Shown in pieces: positions 11,271 through 30,941 of a stretch of 64,000 bases of DNA (position 1 is its first letter; each line of letters starts with the position of its first letter). Location: positions 806,001-870,000 of the forward strand of contig JAECYW010000018.1 of assembly GCA_023014335.1 (NCBI GenBank). The letters are read 5' to 3'. The translations under genes and the position numbers were made by a program. This stretch comes from Galerina marginata (lineage: Eukaryota; Basidiomycota; Agaricomycetes; Agaricales; Galerinaceae). The notes below the pieces were generated by a model, which was not told the origin of the DNA, searched no databases, and saw only the letters and a program-made list of their open reading frames with translations.

Positions 11271-11415
11271 TGGAACAGTGGGATCAGGCCCGGAGCGGAT
11301 CAGCACGTGACCGCCTAGTTTAGTGTAGACAGCCGTAGCCAGACGAGATCCTCACCACAATACCACGCCATTCCCTTGAGCTAGCGACGTGCTCGGGACA
11401 GATCCTACCTTTCCA
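11271..11415 (+). repeat. 5' LTR (145 bp)
   Basis: Identical by eye to 13593-13737. Starts TG and ends CA, and contains a CACGTG E-box-like site. Normally the LTR would supply the promoter for the internal ORF and the RNA. Confidence 0.93.
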
Positions 11416-13592: not shown

Positions 13593-13737
13593 TGGAACAG
13601 TGGGATCAGGCCCGGAGCGGATCAGCACGTGACCGCCTAGTTTAGTGTAGACAGCCGTAGCCAGACGAGATCCTCACCACAATACCACGCCATTCCCTTG
13701 AGCTAGCGACGTGCTCGGGACAGATCCTACCTTTCCA
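13593..13737 (+). repeat. 3' LTR (145 bp)
   Basis: Identical by eye to the 5' LTR at 11271-11415. Followed by ATGC, which matches the 4 bases before the 5' LTR. Confidence 0.93.
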
Positions 13738-14466: not shown

Positions 14467-14469
14467 ATA

Positions 14470-14919
14470 CACTGCTGGAAGGGGAATATTCTGCGGAGCG
14501 CAGAATCTAGGTAGAATGTAATGTGAAATCATTTAGTTCTGATTAAAGCAGAATAATAAATTTTTAATTGTTTCTGCCACGACGCAAAAGACAATAAGAA
14601 TCGAGGGAGATTTTTATGTTTTGCCTAAATTCAGTATCTCGCAGAATTTTTCCTTTTGTGCCGATTCCGAGACAATTAGAATCTAATCAAAACGTAAGGT
14701 TCTATCCAAATTCACCCTAATTCAGAACATATCAATCTGCAATTGCACAAAAGAAGATGAGAACCTTTCATTTTGAGATATTTAGAACGTATCATTCTGA
14801 TCTAATTCCGAATGGATTTAGATTTTTGTAGAATCTTATTATAAATAAAAATTCTGGATTTTGCAGAACGCATCGTCCCAAGTCGGGGGTACGTCATCTG
14901 ACCCGACTTGGGCCCCGAC
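14470..14919 (+). repeat. left terminal inverted repeat of the 16.5-kb transposon
   Basis: Matches the reverse complement of 30490-30938 with scattered substitutions. It starts CACTG. A perfect palindrome (arms ATTCTGCG/CGCAGAAT, 3-nt centre) lies at 14488-14506. The inner end has a second hairpin with arms CCCAAGTCGGG and CCCGACTTGGG (about 14878-14912). AGAAT/ATTCT words are dense throughout and may be transposase contact sites. Confidence 0.92.
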
Positions 14920-14970
14920 AATGAGGTAGTGAAAGAACAATCGACGAGAACAAGTGCAATAGAATTCACA

Positions 14971-17900
14971 TCACATAACAAATACAAGGCTATCGAGAGA
15001 ATAAGTACAAACTGAATAATTAATGGCTAGTATTCCTGTCGTATAAATGATTGTTAGCACTGGTCCAAAGTAAGGGATAGAGGTAGTTACCCGACATAAA
15101 GATATAACAGCCAAACAATCTGCACCACACCATGGAAAGAACAAGCCAGCAAAGTGTGATTCAACATCTTGAGGCTTGATAATTACAAGTTGTCCAAGTT
15201 GTTGAGACCAGAGAGATGAATGGAGGAAGGGATATTTTCGAAATGGGTCTTCGGACATGGTCTTGAGGAAAAAACGAACAACAAAATAAATCTCGCCTGT
15301 GGATATTTGGAGGATGCTTTCGATCTGGGCAGGAATAGAGGGAAGCCGAAGGTGGCGGACAAGAATGAAGCTGTTGCCTCTATGGCGAGTGACTGTGGTG
15401 AACGTCAAACGGTTTAGGGTATAGCAAGTCAGAATTTTAGCTTCGCGTGGAATTTCCTTCGTGCAGGAGAAGTATGTTTGCAATGCTCGGTAGGGTCCTT
15501 CCGCAATGGCAGTCATCCTTCCTGTTATACCGATGGGCTCATCTGCTTCTTCCTCGAGTGACAGAAATCGCGCGATGTCCGTAAGCAGCGTGTTGCGCAC
15601 CTGCAGATCAATCAATTTAGAGAAATGACCGCTGCAATTTTTGATTGCTTGAGGACACCCCTCTTTTAACATGAACGCTCGAAGGTTGGCAGACTTCGTA
15701 AACGAGGAAGATATTGTCTCTTCAAGTTTACCTTAAGAGACAGTGAGTCAAACTCAAAAATGAAAAAAAAGGCTTACCATTTTGAAAGTTATTTGGAATA
15801 CGTTGGAGCATTCCAATCAATCGTTCAAAAGGAAAGGTCCACCAAGAATGTACTGGACCATAGATTCGTAAATATTCTGCAAGATGAAGAGCCATATGTT
15901 GATTCGGAAGGAATCTATACCGCGGAAACAGTCCTCGAATTCCCTTGAGATAGTTTTGCATGTGGTAGAGATAGAGGTCGGCATTCTCCTGTGAAGTAGT
16001 CCGAGAAGATGCGATGATGACTGCCGAAACCAGAGACAGCGTGACCTCTAAGAGCTTCTTGCACTGGTTTGAGCGCTGGTCAGTATCATCTTCTACTTGC
16101 TCCCACAGGCGAATGAGTGAAATCGGGAGGTAGGCCGTACTCAGTGTACGCCATTGATCTGCCTTGAGTTTTCCATGACTCGGTTCCCCCAGGTTGGTAG
16201 GAACTGATGTGAGCCAGGAAGGGGTGATCATGTTTTCGATGTCAGACCGAAGCTCAGCAACTTCCATAGCAGTAAGAATAGAGCCATTGGTAAAGTTTTG
16301 TGGGGTTTCAGTTTGCGTTATCCGCTATACAAATAAAATTAGCCTACAAGTTGATCTTTAAAGAGGAGATAAGACTGACCCAGGCGAGAATTGAGTGGAT
16401 GAAATCGGGTTTATTGAGCCTTTTTTTGTTGAGATGCTCGGTGTTCACCTTCAAGGAGGCACCAACAGAAGTAAAGATTAAGTTGAGTGCTTCTCGATGC
16501 AGGGGAAACAATCGCTTGTAATATTTATCGTAGCCGGCCGATGACTTGAGTTCCTTCTTTATAGGGGCTTCAAGGATATTTATTAAGCGGAGGATGCTCT
16601 TGCGTTCATGAACTGTTAGCTGAGCCATTTCCCTGTTGGAAACATGAACCTCGATAGACCTTGTTGGTTTGCTGTTGGTATTATTAAGTCTAATGCCCAG
16701 GATGTCGAAATGTTCCTGGACCAAGCCAAGAAACAGGTTATGCATAGCGTCGATGACAATGAAACACGAGGTGTCGAAATATGGGAGACGAAATAGTTCG
16801 GACCACCGGATCCCAGTGTCACGAACAGTTTCAGTCCTCTCCTTCTCATTCTCAGCATCCAGATAGGCCTGTGCCGAATTGCGAATTTCTTCATTTGTCC
16901 GTCGCGTCCCTAATGTTGCAAATGAGTCGTTGAAGGTATCATCTGGTCGTCTTGTACAATGACACATCGCGCACATTTGTGTGTGGTGAATCGATGCAAA
17001 GCCGCTGGTTTTGCGAGCTGCAGGAAGATCAGAAACAAGACAAACGAGGGCACATAGGACCACCCTCCCATAATAATAAGCAGCAGTGCGGGAAAAGCGA
17101 ATGCCATTGTACCAAAATTCCAACAACATGTCAACAAGTAGTCGAAGGTAATGATTAAGGCAGGTTAATGGAGGTTCGTTGGGTCCAGGAATAATCCCAA
17201 ATAAGAACATGTTTTCCGGTTTATAGCGCATTTCTGGAGGAAGGTTGAGACAAACGAGCGATATCAAGCCAATCGACTTCTTCTTCCCTGCCTGTTTGTT
17301 GCCCAGCGGGTTGAAGTAGTCGACGCAGAGGGAAAAGACATACCGGCCTTCATCGCCGCCAGCACTGAAATGCTGTCCGTCAGGACCTTTGAAGTTTCGC
17401 AAGACTTCGGCATCAAAGATGTCCTTCATCTCCTTTGGAGGGGTTGATCCATCTTCACATGGTGCCCAAGCTTTGTCCATTTTTTCCTCGAACCCAGAAC
17501 GCGACAACAGGCCCCCCAACCAGTCCTTAAAGCTGAAAGCAACAAAGGGCTTGATTGGTAGGTAAACTGTTTGGCCATTCACACGTCGTGGCTTGAGAAG
17601 TGGTGTACTACATTTCTTTCCGCCAGGAAAGTCACGGTGGTTGCACATGTCAGGGTAGATGGGGATAGGCGAACCCGCATGGAAAGTCGGCTCATATGTA
17701 AAATGACAGTCGGGATTGGGACAGACGGCAAGGATTGTTGTTTTGTTGTCGAGTGAAAACTCCTTTTCAGTTGCGCGAGGATCGGAAGGGATATCGCCCA
17801 AAAGTTTTTCGTCTGCTTGAGTAAGGCTGCCAGTCCGAAGAAGGGTTAGATGGATGATGTACTGGACCATTCTCAGCATGAAAGTGCAGCCGCGGCGGCT

Positions 17901-18863
17901 CACACCCAGCAAGACGTGGCACACAGTAACCATGAAAAAAGCAACTTGGAGCACAGGGTTGACGTTTTGGAGGATCGGTTTAAAATGGTGGTCTAACAAA
18001 GGACGGAATGGTCAGTACAAGTTTATGTAGTAATATTAAGGTATGACATTACCTGTTTCAAAACGAAGACCATATGCGGGTGTTTTTGCGCACTTGATGT
18101 TGAGCAGTTCCTCCTTCCAATCTTTCTTCGCGATCGTCAGCTTGCTCTCGATGAGCTGTAACTTGCGTAAAGTCGTGTCCTTGAGTTCGAGAACAGCTGG
18201 GGTTTTTAATGTTACTGCGTCCAATCGAGATTTGAGCTCTTTCGAGGAAAGCAATAAATCTATATGGGGAAAAGGAGTTGGTGGACCAGAGGACGACGGT
18301 TGGCCAAGCTGGGCAAGGCAATTGGAAACTTCACGCTTTAGAGCGTCTACCTCAACCTCAAGATCAGCCAAACATGCAAGGACCTCAGCCTCACGCGAAC
18401 GCCGTGAGCCAGCCTGGCGAGGTGGGGAGTGTAGAGAGGTAGGCCTACAGCCTTGAGCGTTTGTATTGTGACTATGGACTTCCGAAACAGTAGGTGGTGT
18501 CTGGGGAGTCAGAGGAACTGATGTCTGATGAACTGCCTTGGGCGCAGTAATGGGGTTATCGTGAGGTGGGTACTCTGCAGAGCCGTCGAGCCTCGACCAA
18601 AGCGAGCCGCCAGGGTTCTGCGATGGACCCGAAACTTCATCTGCAAGTGTACTTGCTGAAAGATATGTCGTGATTTCTTCTATCTGGCTGTCGAGGGTGA
18701 GTTCGGTATTCTGCTGTGCGGCATTGAAAGCCGCCTGTCTGTCGGCGTTTGCGTGGGCCCTCAGCGTTCGACGATCGACATCTCTCCCAAGCGGTTTATT
18801 GGAGACAGGATCAGTACCTCCAGCAATGTAACAGCCGGATGAGACGCAGAAGCAGAGTGGCAT
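14971..18863 (-). CDS. Tnp2-type transposase (Plavaka/CACTA-like), 1243 aa
   Basis: Four exons on the minus strand: 18863-18053, 17992-16380, 16324-15778, 15731-14971. The introns are GT-AG and the frame closes at 1243 aa. The N-terminus (MPLCFC..., then PLGRDVDRRTLRAHANAD) resembles other Agaricomycete Tnp2 proteins. Residues ~100-190 are disordered, followed by a coiled coil. The second exon holds the Tnp2 catalytic region: IHHTQMCAMCHCTRRPDD, RWSELFRLPYFD and the diagnostic VIDAMHNLFLGLV around 16.7-17.0 kb. A C-terminal part with YGPVHSWWTFPFERLIG is conserved too. It should act in the nucleus on the element's TIRs and subterminal sites. The gene ends 51 bp inside the left TIR. It looks intact. 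Confidence 0.88.
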
Positions 18864-19166
18864 GGTAAGGACGAAGGAATAAGGTTAAGTGCAGTGGTAA
18901 ACCAGAACACTTAGGACGAGCAATAAAGCCTGTGGTTATTGGTTAATATATCATCCATAAAGTCTTTATAGAATAAGAAAACAACACACCTTAGAGAACA
19001 AGGACGTAAAAGACCTGAAAGACCTGGTTGCTGGGTGAAAACAAAGTCGTCGAATCAACGTTGACCGAAAAGATCGCAATCTTGAACAAGAACAAAGGCC
19101 CAGATTCGAAAAAAGGAGGGCTCGAGGAACTGGACAAAGGATACGCGCAAAGCGCGTGAAGAAAAG
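18864..19166. promoter_or_regulatory. upstream region of the transposase gene
   Basis: About 300 bp between the transposase ATG and the palindrome array. Presumably the promoter and 5'UTR; a possible 5'UTR intron is not excluded. No specific element recognised. Confidence 0.4.
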
Positions 19167-19702
19167 AATACACTGGACGATCCAATGAATTCATCTGCCC
19201 TCCGAATAGATACGCTGGATTATCCAGCGTATCTAGTGCCTTCTAAACGGAGGACAAAGAGAGTACAAGAGAAAAAAAAGAATACTCTGGACGATCCAGA
19301 GTATTCATTAGACATTGGAGTAGATACGTTGGATGATCCAACGTATCTAGGAGACCTAGGTTATTGTGTATGTGAATTCACATACACAAAGACTTCCGGA
19401 CGTGATGATGTGACTGTGTGAATATATGACATAAGCGCCACCAGAGTCGTCCCCGACTTCGACGGGCCTTGTTGGACTTCACTATGATGCACTGGATCAT
19501 CCAGTGTATCTTCTCAGAATTACATTGGATCATCCAAAGTAATTCTGTTTTTCTTTCCTCCCACGTACTTTTGCTGAATCCTCGGGATGAGACCATGGAC
19601 GACCACAACGACCATACGCTATCAACGACGCCTTCAAACGACGCCTTCACCATCATCATCCGGCGTACTGTATGAATTACTTTGGATCATCCAAAGTAAT
19701 TC
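19167..19702. repeat. palindrome array A (seven dyads, core TGGATnATCCA)
   Basis: Seven dyad-symmetric sites: 19167-19192, 19209-19233, 19280-19306, 19323-19347, 19486-19510, 19515-19547 and 19674-19702. Four are perfect palindromes with 12-14-nt arms and a 1-3 nt centre (sites 2, 3, 4 and 7). All share the TGGA...TCCA core, but outer arm bases differ between sites while staying paired (CGCTGGAT, CTCTGGA, CGTTGGAT, CTTTGGAT). The array lies between the transposase start and the end of the 819-aa gene. Subterminal repeats bound by a dimeric transposase subunit would fit; RNA hairpins in a long 5'UTR are another possibility. Confidence 0.85.
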
Positions 19703-19843
19703 TTGCTGCCTTTCCTGCTATGGACTTCCGCTGAACTCGACGAGACCATGGACATGGTCATATATTCAATATTGGTATTCGCCTTGGGTCGACCAGCAAC
19801 CCAGCCGCCTATACCTCGATAACGTCTACTCGATAACAACTAC

Positions 19844-22550
19844 TTAAGCTTGTACGTTACCCAGATCCTTCCTTTCCTTCATTGCTAATGCCTTAATCAT
19901 TCGTTCGCTACTTAGACTTGTCACCCACTCCCTGGAATAATAGTTTTTCGGACACCCAACTTTCGGCCCGCGTTTGCTGATCGTTGCGGTCGTGGATCGT
20001 ATCCTGTCTCTTGGTTGCTTTCCGGGACGGGCCCCACCAAAGGCATTCGTGATGTTGCGATCGTTGTCGACGACCAACAAGCGTTCCTTACACGCTTTAG
20101 CTCGCCAAAGACGCCTCCTTATTTTGTATGTCGTTTTCTTGGTTTCTTCGTCGACCTCACTCTCATCAGAACTCATTCCCGCAGGTCCCAGTTCCTCTAT
20201 CATCTCAGCCGTTGCTTTCCAGCCTGGGTCTATGGAGCCGTCGCGTTTCTTCAAGTTCCCGTAGCTAATCTCCAGGCGGTTGTTGTATAGCTAAACAATA
20301 CGTTAACGCTGAATCCCAAAAAATTGGAAATTGACTTACGTCGAGTCTTCGGGTGTTCCTTCGTGCGCGTTGATGTACCGCCTTCTCCCTTTCTAATATC
20401 TCCGAACCGTTAAATTTCCGAGATTCTCTCCATACCCGAGTAAGGCGGTCAAGACGATCAATAAACATATCTTCCACTGTCATTTTTTCTTCCGACGTGA
20501 ATACGGTACCCTGCTCCTGTTCAAAATATGTGGTAAACAAGTCACAGAGGGCATCGTTCCAGGAATTGGGTTTGGTGTTTTCGAGAAACGGACGCATGGG
20601 ATCAAGGCTTGGGACCATTGTGGTGCCCTCGTTAAACTCTTCGACTTCATCCTCTGTCGCAGCGTCAATGTCAATCACATCTTTGTCGTGCTCGATCCCC
20701 AAGAGGGTATTCATTGACTTCCGGACGGCCGCCTAGAGTGTCATTAGTGGCTTGTAAATTCCCGGACACTGCACACATACCAACTGGGATTTCCTCAGTG
20801 TTGTATACCCGCGAAGTTTTGACTGACGGAAGATCTTCCGATCGGATCGCCTGTTGCTGCGACATTCCTGTGCGTTCACCCCAAAAACTGCCGGATCAGT
20901 CTGAGAGTCTTTCCTATGGCCGCGTTGTTGCAATCGTGGAGGAACTTGGGGCGTGGATGCTGTGGTCACACCTGGGGAGGCGGAAGGTTGGTCTGGATAG
21001 TCAAGTGATGATGATGGGCCAGGCGATGGACTAGTTGGGGAAGCATTAGGCTGGTCAGCGAAACGAACATGTCTCGCGTTCATCTCGATCTCAACGGGTC
21101 TTGCACCACCTCTGCTTCGAGGAAATACCATGGGTGGAGGAACCTTCAAGGAAACCTTAGGTGACGAGTTAACAGGATGAAAGAATCTCGTACCGTCGTC
21201 TCCCTCTGCTTGCCTTTCTGTGCTGCAGTTATTTCCTCTCGCTCATCCCAAGATGAAGATGCGCCCATCTCGTCGTCTTCGGAACTGTTCGGCACAGTAT
21301 TTCCTTCCGAATGTTCAGCAACTGAGTGTTCTTCATCGTCGTTCCTGACGGCTGTGTTCGAAGGTCCTGCGATTTGCTGCCGAGGAAAAAGTAAATCTTG
21401 GACATCGGCCGTTGCTTCGTCCTCGGAGTCGTCTTCTGTCGTCTCCCTCCACGGTTTTGCATTGCTCGTCTTGACGTGCCGACGTGATGGTGCATCCACT
21501 TCCATGGGCTCTGTTTGTCCTGAAGGCCGTGAGGGTTGGATTCAGCTTTTGGATTCAGCTTAAGAGATGATGGTTTACGTACCTATGCTGGCCTCGAGCC
21601 GTTGCATCGCATCCATGAATTTCTTCTCCATTTCCGCCATAGCTCGCTCATATTTTTCCTCCGTCGCTTTTATTTTCGCTTCTGCTTGTCGCTCTGCTTC
21701 TTCCGCACGCCTCACAGCTGCCAGAAGTTTCTCACTAGCACTTCGATTAAGTTCTTCTGCCTGAGCCTTGACCCTCTCTATTTCCTGCTCGCGAACTCGG
21801 CTCGCCTCCGCTTGCTTGGTCGCCTCGTCAGCTTGCTGTTTGGCGGAAGCTAACTGTTGTTGAGCTTGTTTCAGTCGTTCGTCCGTCATTTCTTGGTATT
21901 CCTTCGCCGTTTTCTTAAAGCTATCTTCATAGCGCTGTCCGAGTCGTTGCCCGATTTCTCTCTATTCAGGCGATTAGGAATTTTTTTAATCTTCACAAAC
22001 TGAAGCGTACCATGTTTGACATTTTTGACTTTTGTTCCACTACACGAACTTTATTCACCCCATCGTTGTTTTGTGACCGTTTTCGACCCGTGCCAATGTC
22101 AAACGGCGATAAGAGCGGTATGGCTGGAATGTCTGACGAGGAAGACCCAGCTGGTGGAGCGGACTCAGTGGAGGGGATGGATTCTGAAGGTAATGGGTAG
22201 GCAAAGTTGAAAGAAGTGTTGTTATCTATGGGCATGTCGTCCGGATGGGCAGGGAGGGCAGGCCCGCTGTTGTAAGGTACACAAGGAGCAGACCTGCTGG
22301 CTGGGTTGTGAGGAGCATAAGGATTGGAAGTGTTGTCCGGGTTATTAGGGCCACTGCGGTCGAGAGTGTCTGGGTTAGACGGGGCGATATTGGCGACAGA
22401 CCCGCTGTCTGGGTTGAGAGCATAACTATAGGAGGGTCCACTTTCGGAATCGGTGTAGTGGGTAGACCTGCTACCCGTTTCCATGTCGTCAAGCTCTATG
22501 TCGTCAGAGGCAGGTTGGAAGAAGGGTAACTTATTCACGAAATATTCCAT
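19844..22550 (-). CDS. transposon-encoded 819-aa coiled-coil protein, unknown function
   Basis: Six minus-strand exons: 22550-22011, 21961-21583, 21519-21194, 21155-20781, 20732-20340, 20290-19844. Introns are 38-63 nt and the frame closes at 819 aa. Residues 1-180 are Ser/Pro/Asn-rich and disordered. About 185-305 is a long Ala/Glu/Gln/Lys coiled coil. About 310-560 is acidic and disordered. The C-terminal ~260 residues form a conserved-looking domain with DLFTTYFEQEQG, GWKATAEMIEELG and GPAGMSSDESEVD followed by a basic RRRLWRAKACKERLL stretch. I recall that C-terminal pattern as a greatly expanded family in Agaricomycete proteomes. No enzyme motif seen. By position it could be the second transposition protein, as CACTA elements often need an accessory DNA-binding protein (TnpA-like); that is inference. 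Confidence 0.8.
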
Positions 22551-23110
22551 GTCTTGCCAGATCTTATGACTGGCATCGTCCTTATATCTGATGCATAGTT
22601 CGTCAATCCTTGGGTTGCCAGTGTGTCGCCATGGAATTAATTTCGGTACATTGTGTCAATTGTCCTTTACACAACTCATCGTCTGCCTGTATGACGCGGA
22701 GTTCGTCAATTCATGAGTTGAGCTTGTGCGGTCGCCATGGACTTAATATTGGGATTTTCGTGCCAATTGTTTCTGACGAAAGCTGTTTTCTGTTGCTCAG
22801 CCTTCTGCATATCGTCGTTTCGTCTGGTGGCTTTATTGTTTATATTTAGTGTATTCGGGGGTACCATTTCCATTCTTCGGGGGTACCATTGCCTGCCTTC
22901 CCATTTTGGGAGACTTTGATGCGCCATCCCGTGCGCACTTTTTGTATGGCACCAATTACTGTACATTGATCAGAACCCTCACGACGCAGATTCCTCCGCA
23001 AATTCCTCACGACGAACTTCATTTATTGTTTGTAATGCTTATAAATGCAATAGGTCAAACCAGGTTCAATATAGTGTCCAACACCGAGTCCAATACCCAG
23101 TCTTCGCGGA
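22551..23110. promoter_or_regulatory. divergent promoter region with short direct repeats
   Basis: It separates the divergent 819-aa (-) and 140-aa (+) genes. Two related ~70-bp blocks start AGTTCGTCAAT at 22597 and 22700 and share GTCGCCATGGA and a CAATTGT end. A perfect 15-bp repeat TTCGGGGGTACCATT occurs at 22854-22868 and 22876-22890. These look like duplicated regulatory blocks. Confidence 0.5.
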
Positions 23111-23583
23111 ATGCCTTCGTCTCGTGGCCTGCCACCTCCACCATCTCAGAGTGTATGCTCACAACTTCTTAAATTTCAACCGATTCTGATAGTTTCATCT
23201 AGGATAAAGTCATCTATACACGCGCGCGATTTTACGGACAACGCAACCGCCCGCTATGGAAACTCGTACCGACTCAAATAACGTCCAGGCGTCGCCGTGC
23301 TGCTATCCATGCCTCTCGTCGATACCCCTGGGTTGAGGGTATTTTTGAACATCGTAATACTCAGCCCTTCGTCCACGACACCTCTATCACTGTTCGGCAC
23401 AACGGCAGGGAACACATTTTCTTTGTATTCTGCCAAAATCACTGCCGTCTACCATTCAACAATGCTGTTGTTGGACCTTGGAGGGGCAACATTGTCGTCA
23501 TGAAGGCTGGAAGTGAGGTCAATGGGGTTGTCGACATGCGTCCACAAGACGCTGGACTGGTTGACCAGGTTATTAACGAGTAG
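23111..23583 (+). CDS. 140-aa transposon-encoded protein, unknown function
   Basis: Two exons, 23111-23152 and 23203-23583, with a 50-nt GT-AG intron that has a CTGAT branch site; 140 aa in frame. It is basic in the first half (RRRRAAIHASRR). The second half has the motif PWRGNIVVMKAG followed by GVVDM, which I recognise from many small Agaricomycete hypothetical proteins. No catalytic motif and no membrane segment. It is transcribed divergently from the 819-aa gene. The starting Met depends on the splice model; without the intron there is an in-frame stop just upstream. Confidence 0.65.
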
Positions 23584-24274
23584 GTGGATTTGTCTTGATA
23601 ATTTTCAGCACCTAATATTTGCATTAGATTTGTCTTCCGAGTCAAGCAAAAATCGCCCTTCCGCTTTCCTAAGAAACTTGTGTTTGATATCTAGTCCATG
23701 GTATACCCATCCATATACATATCTCATATACCCATCCGTATACATATTTCCTCTTCTCTATTCAAAATATATGTCTTCATTTACACCTTGCGGAATTACT
23801 AAGTTAAAATACTGTCAGACATTTGAGCTTTGGGTGAAACACTACTTAGGACGCGCTGCCTTGCAGTGATGCGGGTGACACGCTGCCTTGGGCTAATCGC
23901 ATGGCGATGGGAACTCCATGCCGTATCTCAATCCAAAGCAGTCCGGCGGTCGTAATTTTTTGTAGATATGATGGTGTACTGCTATACTATGCGTGGGCCA
24001 AGTTTTGTGTAATACTGGTTGACTGGGGATGAGCTACGATATGAATTAGCGGGTAACCTAAAATCAGCGCACTCTCAGCAACGCTTTTGCCACACGTGAT
24101 TTTGTGGCAAAACGATTGCAATTGAACTCAACCATTATTCAAATGCTATATTGTGCACCTTTGATGATTTTTAGGCTCATGCAGTCAATATGAAATTGTA
24201 TGATATAAATTTCGCAAATTGAGGATACATATATTACAAGGCAGGCTCGTCAAGAAACTACCTACACCGGGCCT
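23584..24274. other. spacer between convergent genes inside the transposon
   Basis: About 690 bp between the 3' ends of the 140-aa (+) and WD40 (-) genes. No coding frame or repeat array seen; presumably both 3'UTRs and terminators. Confidence 0.4.
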
Positions 24275-25890
24275 TCAAAGCACTTCTTGGGCTGACCGAT
24301 ACCTAACAGGAGCCCGGACAAATGGACCACCAAGCCACTTGTAACCATCATCCCCAACAACGCCCAGAGCTACAATTGAAGCGATAGAAAGGATGAAGAA
24401 AATATTGAGGAAGACTAGCAAAGTCATAGAACTGCATCCACCGCAAGTGCGCTGTTGACCTTGATGGCCCTTAACCTATGTTGACGCTGTTAATATCACG
24501 AATATTTTTGGAAAAGTGCGGCTTTACCTTCTTTGCCCAGATGTGTATAGTCGGTTTGGTTTCGTCGGTACCACTTGCAATGAGATGTTCGTTCGGAGTT
24601 GAACAGGCCTAAATTGATCAATCAGTAATGGATGTCATGATAAGACTGTAACATACATCAATGATTTGTACCATGGTCTTCGACGAACCATGTCGCAATT
24701 TCTGCAGACATGTCGATGTTCCACGGGAGAAGATATGAATATCTCCGTGATCACTGCCACAGGCTACGGAGGTTTCGTCCTCTAAGAAGACACCTTGTTG
24801 CACGAAGGCCTTCGTGCGCGAGACTTGGAACGAGTCGGTGGGCGATGTGTGAGGGTAATTATAGAGGTCGAATCCCTTGGCCAGGTTGTCGACGAGCAAC
24901 CATTTGCGATCCACACTGAAGCAGACATTTCCGCTACAAGGAGTAAGTAGTGATATTGGCTTGAACTGTGCTCGGTGACGTACATGCTCGATTTGAGGAC
25001 CTTGGACCAGTTATCTACGCCGGAAGCAGCTACTTTCGAAAGCCTGTAATATAGCACGATGTGAGCTTCGTTTGACTATGACAGACAATACGGACACTTA
25101 CATAACACCTGACTCAAGCCCGAATGCCACAATGTTTTCTCCCTTGTCGGTGAATTGAACGGATCGCGGAATGACTCCTTTCGCCTCCAGTATGTCATTC
25201 CAATTCTTGGTCCATAATGCAATTAGTGTTCCTGAAAATGATCAATCGAACTTCCGAAGAGCTAGAGGGAATCGCCCATACCATTTTTCTCGACATGAAA
25301 TACCTTGATCTTGCCAGTGTGACTCGATAGCGCCAGTCTATTCTTTTTCTTATCGTAGTCCATGGCTTCGACAGGTTCGTTGAAGGGCACCACCGCAGTA
25401 CTCGAAAGCTCTTTGAAATGATCCTATTTCATGGTCAGTACTCTCCCCAATATTTGTTAATAAGACCACTTACCCCATCCTTAGTTCGTTGGTATATCAA
25501 GACGAGCCCTCGTCCAGTACCAAAGCAGAGAGCGTCACCATGGTCAGAAAGCCCGATTAGCCAAAGTATACACGTTATCTGGCCCCATCTCTGCAGGTCG
25601 TCTCCGATGACTTGATGGACTTGCTTGCGGGTAACGTCCCAAACTCGAAGTTTTTCGTCGTCGCCTAAACAGCAGGTCAGCAATTTCTTGTTGTTATAGT
25701 GTTACACGCACCACCGCTGGCGAGGTATTTTGCGTCCGGCGCAAATGCCAAGGCGTTGATAGGGCCCTCTGACCCGGATAGTCGCATGCAAACCCTGTAT
25801 TCCTTAGATGACGTCAATATAGGTGACATATGAAAATCAAGCACTTGCAGAACCTACCTCGTCGGCGAGTTGTTGTTGAAAGAACAGCAT
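24275..25890 (-). CDS. WD40-repeat protein with a C-terminal transmembrane anchor
   Basis: About ten small minus-strand exons with clean GT-AG introns run from the ATG at 25890 to the TGA at 24275, giving roughly 440 aa. WD-like blades are visible: INALAFAPDAKYLASGG then LRVWDV near the start, VEAMDYDKKKNRLALSSHTGKIKVFHV in the middle, SVACGSDHGDIHIFSRG, and EHLIASGTDETKPTIHIWAKK at the end. The last exon encodes a short Cys/Gly linker and one hydrophobic segment (MTLLVFLNIFFILSIASIVA), then ~30 polar residues, so it is likely tail-anchored with the propeller in the cytosol. The role is unknown. Lying inside the transposon, it is either captured host cargo or a stable passenger. Confidence 0.78.
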
Positions 25891-26126
25891 TGAGGAGAGA
25901 AGGCGAGGAAGTTAGTGGTGGATGAGTTCTGAAAGTCGGTTTGTTATCGTTCGCATAATGGAGAAACACCTTTTTAAATCCACTCGCCAATTGTTATTGG
26001 CCCATGGCGACCGTTATTATTGATAAGAATGTAACTTGGAATGAATCTTCAGAGCACGTTGAGAAGCTTCAAAACAATAAAAAAAACACATATATAAATA
26101 TAACTCGTACTTCACATTGGGACATC

Positions 26127-26935
26127 ATGTCTCTTCCAATTAAATCTCACCTGCCGCTCATCACAACTCGGATCGAGTTCAAATTTAACCCGCTACCCCC
26201 TCCACCCCAAATTACGACCCGACGTGATTTTGGTGCGAACATTCGGCGACAGAATCGGTACCATTCTGCACCCTACAATCGACCCAAGGCGCGCGCACAA
26301 ACACCTGCCAGAGCTCACTCGGTTGGCTTTGAGGTTCAATCGATATCCTCATTATCCGATCTGTCAGACGACGAGGAATCCGTCGACGGGGATAACGTCC
26401 AATCAACCCGTGGATTGATCCCCAAGCCCGGTGGAGAGGCGGGCAAAACCAACAGTGGTGGGTACAACCTCGAAAAGGCTTTAGGCTGGACCAAGAAGCG
26501 CTATGATGAATTCTTTGTGAGTCTTTATCAAATCCAGTAGATTAACGCTCACCTCCTGTAGGACCATATCAAGACCGAAGTCGCTGACAAGCTAGACGCG
26601 AAGAAGTGCTTCACACATCAGAAAATATCTGAACTCGACAAAATCATCCAATCAGTAAGTTTCGAACGACAAGGTAATGGCATACTGACTTGTATATAGA
26701 CTGCGCATAAGTTCGACATCGAAAACACCTATGTCAACAATTGGCCAATCCGCGAGGCGCTGAAGTCGAGATTGAAGTACACGTCGGACTTGGAGAAAAA
26801 GAAGGAGGTGAGGAAAGCCCAGGCCGAACTGAAGGAGGTGAGACCCATTTAACGAGTGTAGACGAAAAGCCGACTCACTGCGAATAGGCCATTAAGCCAT
26901 TCAAAGGCAAAAGCAGGGCCAAGGAGGATGCTTGA
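26127..26935 (+). CDS. 222-aa transposon-encoded protein, unknown function
   Basis: Four exons: 26127-26516, 26562-26654, 26700-26837, 26888-26935, summing to 222 aa with in-phase GT-AG introns. The first ~120 residues are Pro/Arg/Ser-rich and disordered, including an acidic SDLSDDEESVDGD patch. The C-terminal ~100 residues are helical, starting at YNLEKALGWTKKRYDEFFDH and including YVNNWPIREALKSRLKY, and end in a Lys-rich tail. I do not recognise a family by name. The start at 26127 (MSLPIKSHLP) is preferred to an upstream in-frame ATG at 26004 because the latter region is AT-rich and looks like 5'UTR. Confidence 0.65.
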
Positions 26936-27022
26936 CGAGTTCTGTAGCTAGTAGAATACGTGCGAATTGAGGCGACAATAAAGATATTCGTGAACTTGCA
27001 GTTGAGTGAGGATTGACTGAAA

Positions 27023-27331
27023 GCTGTGGATAATCCACGGTTTTCAACGATTGAGGAAGGAATGTGAGTCGTTGACTAGGATGATCCTAGTCAACGTGAA
27101 GGGAAGAGACTGAAGTTGTGACCGGGTTATTGTCGCGTTTGATCGGTAATTTAGACTCCGATTGAAATCTGATCTAACCGACGGCGCGGACACTTCATCT
27201 CTCTATTCCTCTCTTCCACCTCTCGTGTTGTAGCGGACTATCCGCGGCAACAATTCCTTTCCCGTTTCCTGTCACTGTATGGGATTATCCCTGGCAGTGC
27301 CTCTTCCACCGAACGCGTTTCTAACGCGTTC
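27023..27331. repeat. palindrome array B (GGATnATCC-type dyads)
   Basis: Dyads at 27023-27040, 27070-27096 (perfect, 13-nt arms), 27227-27251, 27273-27299 and 27311-27331 (arms GAACGCGTT/AACGCGTTC). The first, second and fourth share a GGATnATCC core with array A. The array lies upstream of the 920-aa gene, mirroring array A upstream of the transposase. Confidence 0.65.
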
Positions 27332-27544
27332 CTTGATTCTGTTTACACTGTCGAAAATCGCAATCTCATGTGAGGCCCTTCGTTGTACGGTCGCGCTTTC
27401 TGTGCTAACTTTTGTTGTTAGATACAACCCTATTGCCTCATCCTTTGGTCCCTGCCTTTTGGCTGGATAAAACGTCGATATAATTGTAAGTACCTCGTCC
27501 TATATCTCGACGACCGTCATCCGACTAATTGCTACTCTCTAGAC

Positions 27545-30358
27545 ATGTCGCCCCTCACCTTCGACTACTCCAACGGCCGTGTTTCTGTGCAACATGGCAT
27601 GATATTCTACTCGCCAAACTGCTCTCGAGCAGTCGACCTTCCGAAGCAACGTACCTATTCATCCGATCCGTTCGAGCACCCTCGTCTGAATACCTCGATG
27701 TTCAAACAGCCAGTTTGGTGGTCCCAAGGCTGGGCATGGCTGAGCTTCATACCCCTGTCGCCATCCTTTCTCTTCACGCCTTTCGAACCTCTCTGTGAGA
27801 TGCCTCACATTGAAGAGGTCGACTTTTCATTCACAACACCATCTGGGAAATTGCAGTCAGAAATCCGCTTCAGGATGTCTGAAGAAGATATCGCGCGCTG
27901 GACTAAAGAAGAGAGGCGTATCGCAAAGATTGCGCACACTATCAAACTATGTTACGGTATTTCGGCAAATGCTCCTCCCAAACCATCGTCGTTCCATTTC
28001 GATCGCGCCCATAAGTCACATCCCGTAGCCAAGCGCATGATCTGTCTTGCTCGCGAATGGTTTGTAATTTGGATGGGTTATCTTTCCTACATAATAGCCA
28101 AGACGGATATACTTGTACCCAACGGTACACCAGATGATTCAACGCCGGCCCCCGACTGGTACAATCGCATGCTGAAGGATCCCGAATTCGATCAGGGTTG
28201 GCTCGACGGCCTCCTCATGTCTACTGTCTGCTCCTACGAGTCGACAACCCCACGAGCTGGGATTATATTCCAGTGGTCGGAAGAGGACCAACGCCGTGAA
28301 CCGATCGACTTTTTCTACAACAATAATATTCCCGTTCATTTCATCTGGTCCAACAAGGAAGAGCAAGCTATTTTGAGTGACCATACCTTGTCCTACCTTC
28401 GACCACCCGATTCGCTAATCAAGGAGGCTTTGACACGCCTGTTCGCTACTCCAAGTGTTCCTCTGGCTGGCCTTGTACTCCAACAATACTTTGAGCTTGG
28501 AGAGAACTCGGTTTCAAACCAAACTCTCGAATTCCTTCGCCTTCAATATGCGCCAACCTTCGTCTTTGAATTTACAGCACAACAATTCCTCGACGAGGAG
28601 ACCCTCCTTAAGCAAACGGAAGCTACTGCAGATGACGACTTGAAAGCCCTGAGGGTACAACGGGACAATGAACTTTTCGTGGCCGCTCAGACCGCTTCCT
28701 CTCTTCCATACCAAGGTTTAGTCGATAACATTCGACAACCGGGAGAGAAGCTGTTCAACCACTTCGATGACTTTTTCGCTGCACGCATGAAGCGTCAGGA
28801 GGAGCTTTTGCGTGTAGAGTCTCCCCAGAATCGTCAGAGGCGCGAATCACGGGAGTGGCATCCGCTCATTGAAAACTCGAATATGTTTATCTGGGAAATA
28901 ACTCAGTCTTCTGGCGGCTGTCAAATGTATAAGCGGGTTAAGGTTAAGCGCGACTACAACTGGGACACGTATTGCGATTTCAAATCCCACCAGCGGTTGT
29001 ACGATGCCTTCTCCAATGAATGGGATTTATGCGAGGACTTTTGTTTTGGCCCTATCGATGACTCTTGTGATTCCGATGGATACAATTCTGATGAAGGCTA
29101 TGACGATACCTATCCTGAAGATTTTGTTTCTCAGCCAAGACCCTCTTCTCGACGCTCTGCCCCTATGGAAGTTCAGACAGATGACGGTTCATTGGTGCAC
29201 CAATACTGCACTGATCCGCTTGAAGCCATGGCTCTCGTATACGGCTATGTACCGCATCAGGGTTCAAATGATCTTCCTTTGACGCACAACTGGGACTCAA
29301 TCCTTAATTTCTTAGGATTCTCCAAAACTTCGGAATTACCAGAGGCTCCAGAACAAGAGAAGGACATGATGAAAAACCACTTTATGGCTTTGGTCTCCAA
29401 AACCAATTCTAAGCGTGCGGATAAAATCATTGACCAAACTTTCGAAAATCTTGCAGGTCTCTTCCCCTTTGAATCTATCCAGCGCCCATCCGATGACCTC
29501 TTCATATTCTCTTCACCTCGGTCGAATGCATGCCAATGGGTTCTTGGAGTCCATTCTGCAGCTGCTGCTCTGTATGTATGTCGATATATCCTCGAGAATC
29601 CTCATGCCCACACTATTCTTACCATCGCCTATCGCCTTCTTGATCGAGGGATCCGATTCCGTACCTTGCTGCCACTTTCTTGCAGCCCCCGACAACACAC
29701 CATCGCCGAGCCCTACTCGCCAAGAGTTTATAGGCTGGCAACCCATAACTTCACAAAGGCTGACTTTGATGTGGCAATGCGGGCGTGTCAGTCAGTCCTT
29801 TCTTCTCCTCAAGGACGGGCTGCTTTGCTGCGAGGAGGAATTATTGCACGCATCGCAAAGGAATACCTCAGCACAGATGTTTTGAATGGCCCATCTCTTG
29901 AAGTAACTGCACACAGAGTTGGTTATCTCACTGACTCCAGTATCCAAGATGATGTCAAGTACTGCGATGATGAACTAACGGCAAATGATATTGCCATTAT
30001 TTGTGGGACATATTCACTTTATACGGGTAAGCCTTCTCATTAGCTTCTTACATCCAAATCTCTCATACACTTCTTAGGAATTCAAGGACAGGTTGCCGTA
30101 CATTCGTGGTTCCCGCCCCCAACAGCTTGGGAGCATTCTCGCTCTGGTTGCAAATGGCTTGACTGGACGGAGCGGTGTGAAGAACGTTTTAAGAGCATCC
30201 TGCGTGGCATTAATGAAGGTAAGGCACGGCCAAAGGCACATGCTGACTGGATCAGTTTTCTGCGCGGCCAGTCGGTATCTCGCGTCTTGGTCGAAGCAAA
30301 TAATGCACGTTCCGAACAATTTATGAATAGGGTGGTACCGCTTAGGCAGGGGATCTAA
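27545..30358 (+). CDS. 920-aa transposon-encoded protein, unknown function
   Basis: Two exons, 27545-30026 and 30078-30358, closing at 920 aa. A likely 5'UTR intron ends just before the ATG (CTCTAG at about 27542). No named domain is recognised. The N-terminal half is rich in aromatic residues (QPVWWSQGWAWLSFIPL). An acidic stretch (about residues 505-545, DDSCDSDGYNSDEGYDD) separates it from a C-terminal part. The end has IAIICGTYSLYTGIQGQVA, a WFPPPTAWEHS motif and GCKWLDWTERCEERF, a pattern I recall from large Agaricomycete families of hypothetical proteins. It is the right-hand terminal gene of the transposon and reads outward to the right TIR, which begins 131 bp after its stop. No signal peptide. 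Confidence 0.78.
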
Positions 30359-30489
30359 TTATGTCATTTGTACTTTTTCATCCGAGAATCCTGTTGCCTT
30401 CTCCTTGCAGTCATTTTTTGTACATGCCGCATATATGTTTAATAATATCTTTTTGCCTGTTTGTTCGATGATGGACCTGAAATTCTTTA

Positions 30490-30938
30490 TCGGGGCACAA
30501 GTCGGGTCAGATGGCGTACCCCCGACTTGGGACGATGCGTTCTGCAAAATCCAGAATTTTTATTTATGATAAGATTCTGCGATAATCTAAATCTGTTCGG
30601 AATTAGGACAGAATGATACGTTCTAAATAACTCAGATTTAAAGGTTCTCACCTTATTTTGCGCAATTGCAGATTGATATGTTCTGAATTAGGGTGAATTT
30701 GGGTAGAACCTTACGTCTTGATTAGATTCTAATTGTCTCGGAATCGGCACAGAAGGAAAAATTCTGCGAGATACTGAATTTAGGCAAAACATAAAAATCT
30801 CCCTCGATTCTTATTGTCTTTTGCATCGTGGCAGAAACAATTAAAAATTTATTATTCTGCTTTAATCAGAACTAAATGATTTCACGTTACATTCTACCTA
30901 GATTCTGCGCTCCGCAGAATATTCCCCTTCCAGCAGTG
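30490..30938 (-). repeat. right terminal inverted repeat of the 16.5-kb transposon
   Basis: Reverse complement of 14470-14919 with scattered differences. It ends CCAGCAGTG at 30938, followed by the ATA target duplication. The same terminal palindrome and inner hairpin are present. Confidence 0.92.
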
Positions 30939-30941
30939 ATA

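Follow-up and report, generated by a model that had tools for sequence, protein, structure and literature searches.

Most descriptions of CACTA elements mention one or two genes, and in the plant elements the TnpA protein binds the subterminal repeats. According to an excerpt of PMC12730594, CAC..GTG ends define the CACTA/EnSpm group, the ends of Plavaka elements are TGT..ACA or CATCA..TGATG, and the target duplication measures 8 bp in Zisupton and 7 bp in Kyakuja. Dense subterminal repeats, as well as a full-length CACTA element with two reading frames, are described in an excerpt of PMC8978399, and the binding of such repeats by TnpA in plants is echoed in a portion of PMC1636069. EnSpm and Plavaka transposons carrying a TET/JBP gene have been described in Agaricales (Kojima 2025, PMC12730594, excerpt), and the large Starship elements of fungi are reported for Pezizomycotina (PMC12134995, excerpt) and also in Tremella (PMC13066641, excerpt).

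The locus considered here lies in a 64,000-nucleotide stretch of the Galerina marginata genome (the window; C10:806001-870000 of a 69.3-Mb assembly in 43 contigs) and is a real, multi-copy, six-gene CACTA transposon of 16.5 kb; positions given without a contig are those of the window. It shares with plant Spm/En and fungal EnSpm the CACTG ends, the 3-bp duplication, a Tnp2 (PF02992) transposase with DUF4218, dense subterminal repeats and the existence of non-autonomous derivatives, but it differs from the element with two reading frames in having six genes, five of which belong to recurrent accessory families. With the TET/JBP-carrying transposons it has in common the supergroup, the fungal group and the carriage of an extra gene, while the recurrent five-gene set is different, and Pfam scans of these genes, which a very remote relative could escape, returned no TET/JBP match. 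Like Starships it is a large fungal element with several genes, but it has a Tnp2 transposase, 455-bp terminal inverted repeats (TIRs) and a 3-bp duplication. No report of a multi-gene CACTA module in Agaricomycetes was recognised in the literature searched, which consisted mostly of sources other than subscription journals. The chassis is known, and the recurrent accessory module (a WD40 protein with a hydrophobic tail and proteins of 815, 920, 211 and 161 aa) appears to be new.

Borders and classification of the element

The strongest repeat in the window, as detected by self-alignment, is a pair of 455-bp inverted repeats, 94.6–94.9% identical, at 14470..14924 (+) and 30484..30938 (–), and inverted repeats arising by chance were rejected. 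Both TIRs are delimited by genome copies as well; the left one starts with CACTGCTGGAAGG and contains repeated ATTCTGC/GCAGAAT motifs, as shown by a motif count. The same 3 bp, ATA, lie outside both ends (14467..14469 and 30939..30941) as the target-site duplication. When CAC...GTG pairs were scanned with the left member before 14972 and the right member after 30358, only 14470/30938 combined 18/18 matching end bases with a 3-bp duplication; one other 18/18 pair is located inside the repeats and is devoid of such a duplication. The inverted repeats of about 450 bp flanked by ATA that had been proposed from the sequence alone are thus recovered at 455 bp with ATA on both sides, and the bounds proposed with them, 14467–30941, are those of the element (14470–30938) plus both ATA copies.

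Four features of CACTA/EnSpm were found: short subterminal repeats, treated below; the CAC..GTG ends, here CACTG..CAGTG; the 3-bp target-site duplication, of which each of the 8/8 insertions examined (seven with CACTG ends, one with CACGG ends) has its own matching pair; and the Tnp2 (PF02992) transposase (1.7e-12, 47.4 bits against a cutoff of 28.6). Plavaka was rejected on its ends, TGT..ACA or CATCA..TGATG versus CACTG..CAGTG, and its profile, PF18759, reached 14 bits on the main transposase exon, below the cutoff of 26.3. Judged by ends, duplication and transposase, the element is EnSpm/CACTA and not Plavaka, so that of the composite label CACTA/Plavaka given in the sequence-only reading the first half stands and the second is withdrawn. 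KDZ was also rejected, the duplication being 3 bp and not 7–8 bp, and so was Starship, as no match to a tyrosine recombinase captain was obtained in Pfam scans of tnp, g2, g5, wd, the long g6 exon and the scanned g3 and g6 homologs. From its sequence, the interval 14470–30938 is probably a complete cut-and-paste transposon of the CACTA (EnSpm) type, and probably an autonomous one.

Gene content

As previously suggested, six genes can be modelled, and the outermost two, tnp (–) and g6 (+), point outward. The models, with 21 introns in total, were built with the help of a diverged copy on contig C29; about half of the introns were compared directly with that copy, and their positions agree, while the remainder were picked by splice consensus and reading frame. 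Among the protein sizes first proposed, 920 aa is retained (g6) and 819 aa becomes 815 aa (g2), whereas 140 and 222 aa probably correspond to g3 (161 aa) and g5 (211 aa), respectively.

The tnp gene (14971..18863, –; 4 exons) encodes the Tnp2 transposase of 1243 aa, in which a DUF4218 match lies just above its Pfam cutoff. In an alignment with 18 homologs, examined for a DDE triad with C(2)C and H, the positions D495, D592, C611xxC614 and D685-A-M-H688 are conserved; a motif L/V/I-D-x-L/M-H is described in a portion of PMC1636069. The g2 gene (19844..22550, –; 6 exons) encodes 815 aa, of which the C-terminal part is best conserved and the middle looks coiled-coil-like by eye, and neither g2 nor g5 has a Pfam match at E 0.01. 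The g3 gene (23111..23694, +; 161 aa, 3 exons) finds its best database match in a Galerina marginata protein, 94% identical. The wd gene (24275..25890, –; 9 exons) encodes a WD40 protein of 401 aa (PF00400, 3.5e-13) that ends, at the C-terminus, in a stretch that is hydrophobic by eye and is probably a membrane segment. It stands head-to-head with g5 (26127..26852, +; 211 aa, 3 exons), which is followed by g6 (27545..30358, +; 920 aa, 2 exons). Most database homologs of g6 bear the precomputed label PF28437, a family that our Pfam scan did not report, and no Pfam match above cutoff was found for the long g6 exon or for the g3 and g6 homologs. Structures predicted for g3 and g6 have a mean pLDDT of about 77, and fold searches with them gave no convincing match, a result that does not imply new folds.

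Copies elsewhere in the genome

Two further insertions have the complete six-gene set, arranged as in the window element. The copy at C4:803923-821184 (17.3 kb, duplication CTT) is about 89–93% identical but damaged: its tnp is interrupted by an insertion and by stops, and the frame of its g6 is broken. The copy at C29:77117-93505 (16.4 kb, duplication AAG) shows about 67–75% DNA identity in the aligned pieces; 25/26 tested exon peptides were found in it (wd exon 9 is the missing one, and wd exon 1 is too short for testing), 24 of them without a stop, the sole stop being in g5 exon 3. Two larger insertions, at C12:852352-891330 (duplication TCA) and C25:180958-225179 (duplication ATA), hold five genes, without g3, and are enlarged by nested or compound DNA. 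In the 44-kb unit on C25 the two outer parts are inverted relative to each other, each matching the right-hand end including g6, and one ATA duplication encloses the whole; it is probably a compound element.

The same ends also bound shorter elements, namely a 5-kb derivative with none of the six genes (C10:1019292-1024329, duplication TGG) and a 658-bp MITE (C10:1375231-1375888, duplication ATA), and a remnant at C34 928–931 kb retains one TIR, g6 and g5. A related family is represented by a compact 8.3-kb insertion at C1:2180714-2189045 (C1b), with CACGG ends, a TAT duplication and TIRs about 70% identical, which carries g6 along with portions of g2 and tnp. The genome contains 31 exact CACTGCTGGAAGG motifs, 14 of which were worked out. 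Ten exact motifs and recurring relatives of wd, g5 and g3 are packed into a small region, C22:28-275 kb, and possibly belong to further elements with these ends.

The joined flanks of the MITE match three sites without it, 79–80% identical and spanning its junction; in the one inspected at single-base level, ATA occurs once and the junction is free of indels. These sites are related repeats and not alleles. At the two full-length sites searched, this genome yielded no empty allele, the left flank of the window element being single-copy and the joined flanks of the C25 unit matching only themselves. The support demanded in the sequence-only reading was either one empty allele or a minimum of two full copies, and the latter are provided by C4, although damaged, and C29, although diverged, both with the same six-gene order. 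Each having its own 3-bp duplication, these copies support the earlier idea that the genes travel with the transposase as one unit. A lack of duplications at other copies had been considered as contrary evidence, and duplications are present; the restriction of the TIRs to short elements, likewise considered, is borne out only in that the 5-kb derivative and the MITE exist, yet the six genes do co-occur elsewhere.

Selection and mosaicism

Between the window element and C29, a simple counting method gave dN/dS values of 0.08 for tnp, 0.22 for g2, 0.08 for g3, 0.14 for g5 and 0.10 for g6, with dS above 1.4 for all genes and saturated for wd. In the comparison with C4 the values were 0.14 (tnp), 0.22 (g2), 0.15 (g3), 0.28 (g6), 0.61 (wd, whose alignment crosses introns) and 0.94 (g5, from very few changes). 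The five accessory genes are under purifying selection where it is measurable between diverged copies. In 500-bp bins the window element and C4 are 78–94% identical up to about 21.5 kb and 98–100% identical in most bins past about 24 kb, a mosaic that suggests recombination between copies.

Clustering of the accessory families

Relatives of g2, g3, g5, g6 and wd, and of PF02992, were collected by six-frame genome searches, in which only the best candidates are scored, so that all counts are lower bounds. Exon rows were merged by hand, incompletely for g6, into entries (g2, 68 rows into 39 entries; g3, 32 into 29; g5, 46 into 36; g6, 81 into 57; wd, 120 into 48; Tnp2, 72 into 71; Plavaka, 124 into 59, five Plavaka rows coinciding with Tnp2 genes being left out), and the expected numbers assume uniform placement. 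Counting the window and its close copies, at least 33 clusters bring together three or more families out of the six; among the matches listed, 17 of these 33 hold five or six families and 5 hold all six. Wide clusters may contain several elements, and the clusters are not independent, since those on C12 and C14 are near-identical and several on C22 are repeats. Matches with identical scores at C12:4.16-4.39 Mb and C14:0.62-0.80 Mb mark an array of these gene families that is duplicated or allelic.

Among the matches listed, wd lies within 20 kb of g5 at 32/36 entries (expected 1.0) and Tnp2 within 20 kb of g2 at 19/39 (expected 1.6). When the two transposase classes are compared over the same distance and the same listed matches, Tnp2 is near 19/39 g2, 10/29 g3, 15/36 g5, 19/57 g6 and 18/48 wd entries, and Plavaka near 7/39, 3/29, 3/36, 1/57 and 5/48, respectively; conversely, two or more accessory families are found at 25/71 Tnp2 loci and at 6/59 Plavaka control loci. 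The wd-g5 pair was examined at 34 g5 loci, two short fragments being left out: in 23 of the 24 with wd at most 5 kb away the two genes are divergent, one has another orientation and the other ten are without wd.

Two diverged clusters extend the association, one at C1 270–286 kb (wd, g5, g2, tnp and g3 at 28–48% identity) and the other at C40 3.58–3.59 Mb (tnp, wd, g5, g6 and g2 at 20–35% identity); no TIRs were found in the stretches scanned around them. In other DNA, the homologs of g6 and g3 are on contigs both of 88,330 bases in Hebeloma cylindrosporum and both of 12,374 bases in a metagenome, from which we infer that they share one contig in each case. None of the 18 tnp homologs, obtained by scoring the 7995 candidates sharing most words, is on a contig of matching size.

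Role of the accessory genes

With high confidence, the locus represents a family defined by CACTG-ended TIRs with ATTCTGC repeats, 3-bp duplications and Tnp2, present as full, nested, deleted and MITE copies and furnished with five recurrent genes under purifying selection where it is measurable. Such an arrangement could also be a chance composite, if the same regions accumulate every type of transposon, and indeed several clusters span 40–100 kb, the C12 and C25 insertions are nested or compound, and the families are enriched near Plavaka genes too, although less strongly. A pure nest of this kind is very improbable: the three six-gene copies have common TIRs and gene order, C29 speaking strongly against a composite, C1b is a compact TIR-bounded unit, and the Plavaka control, in which Tnp2 counts exceed Plavaka counts for 5/5 families (g6 and g5 being examples), led to its rejection as the cause of the clustering.

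A different objection is that an ordinary CACTA transposon captured host genes, the five genes being either passengers or of service to the host. Several points fit this reading: among the matches listed, 40/71 Tnp2 loci have no accessory family detected within 20 kb, many g6 relatives are solitary, the other families likewise have some members outside clusters, and the C12 and C25 insertions have no g3. Random capture, however, would not be expected to bring the same families together with Tnp2 at about 20–48% identity in separate clusters, nor to keep the wd-g5 head-to-head pair, and selection is visible between the element copies themselves; captured cargo is, on these grounds, unlikely. 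We therefore lean towards accessory genes that serve the element and are not captured host cargo.

In the mechanism that these genes would serve, Tnp2 would cut at the CACTG ends, the ATTCTGC repeats would be bound by a partner protein, g2 being the likeliest one, in the manner of TnpA of the plant elements, wd and g5 would be transcribed from a shared divergent promoter, and wd, g5, g3 and g6 may act in transposition, in expression or in the escape from silencing. The relatives of the accessory genes being repeatedly found with Tnp2 genes, it is probable that several mushroom gene families, so far unexplained, are components of transposons. The wider proposal of an Agaricales superfamily of multi-gene CACTA elements, in which g2, g3, a membrane-anchored WD40 protein, g5 and g6 form with Tnp2 a self-maintaining set, the orphan families are transposon machinery and g2 is common to Tnp2 and Plavaka elements, has in our estimate slightly better than even odds. 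If true, the recurrence of a six-gene form would account for how several large, unnamed gene families of mushrooms have spread, would caution against including them among host genes, and would offer material for testing why a WD40 protein and other helpers are needed by a DNA transposon.

Subterminal repeats and g2

In five TIRs from the window, C4 and C29, TTCTGC occurs 6–10 times per TIR, compared with about 0.2 in mononucleotide shuffles. The C1b TIR is without ATTCTGC repeats, which weakens a general role of this motif as a binding site. Among the matches listed, a Plavaka gene lies within 10 kb of g2 at 6/39 entries (expected 0.7), consistent with a helper that works with more than one transposase. 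Since g2 recurs with Tnp2 and also adjoins Plavaka genes, it is a candidate accessory DNA-binding protein, and we tentatively regard it as a possible TnpA-like factor, an assignment with somewhat less than an even chance.

At C7:19300-24745, C9:39754-45199, C9:215292-220476 and C21:614838-620612, a relative of g2 lies on the same strand as a Plavaka transposase gene, about 5 kb from it.

Other repeats in the window

Upstream of the transposase gene, at 19159–19753, near self-complementary stretches of about 26–30 bp lie inside direct repeats of 78–84 bp. Beside the transposon, identical 145-bp direct repeats (TGGAAC...TTTCCA) at 11271–11415 and 13593–13737 surround a 530-aa open frame, and the whole is probably a young, small LTR element.
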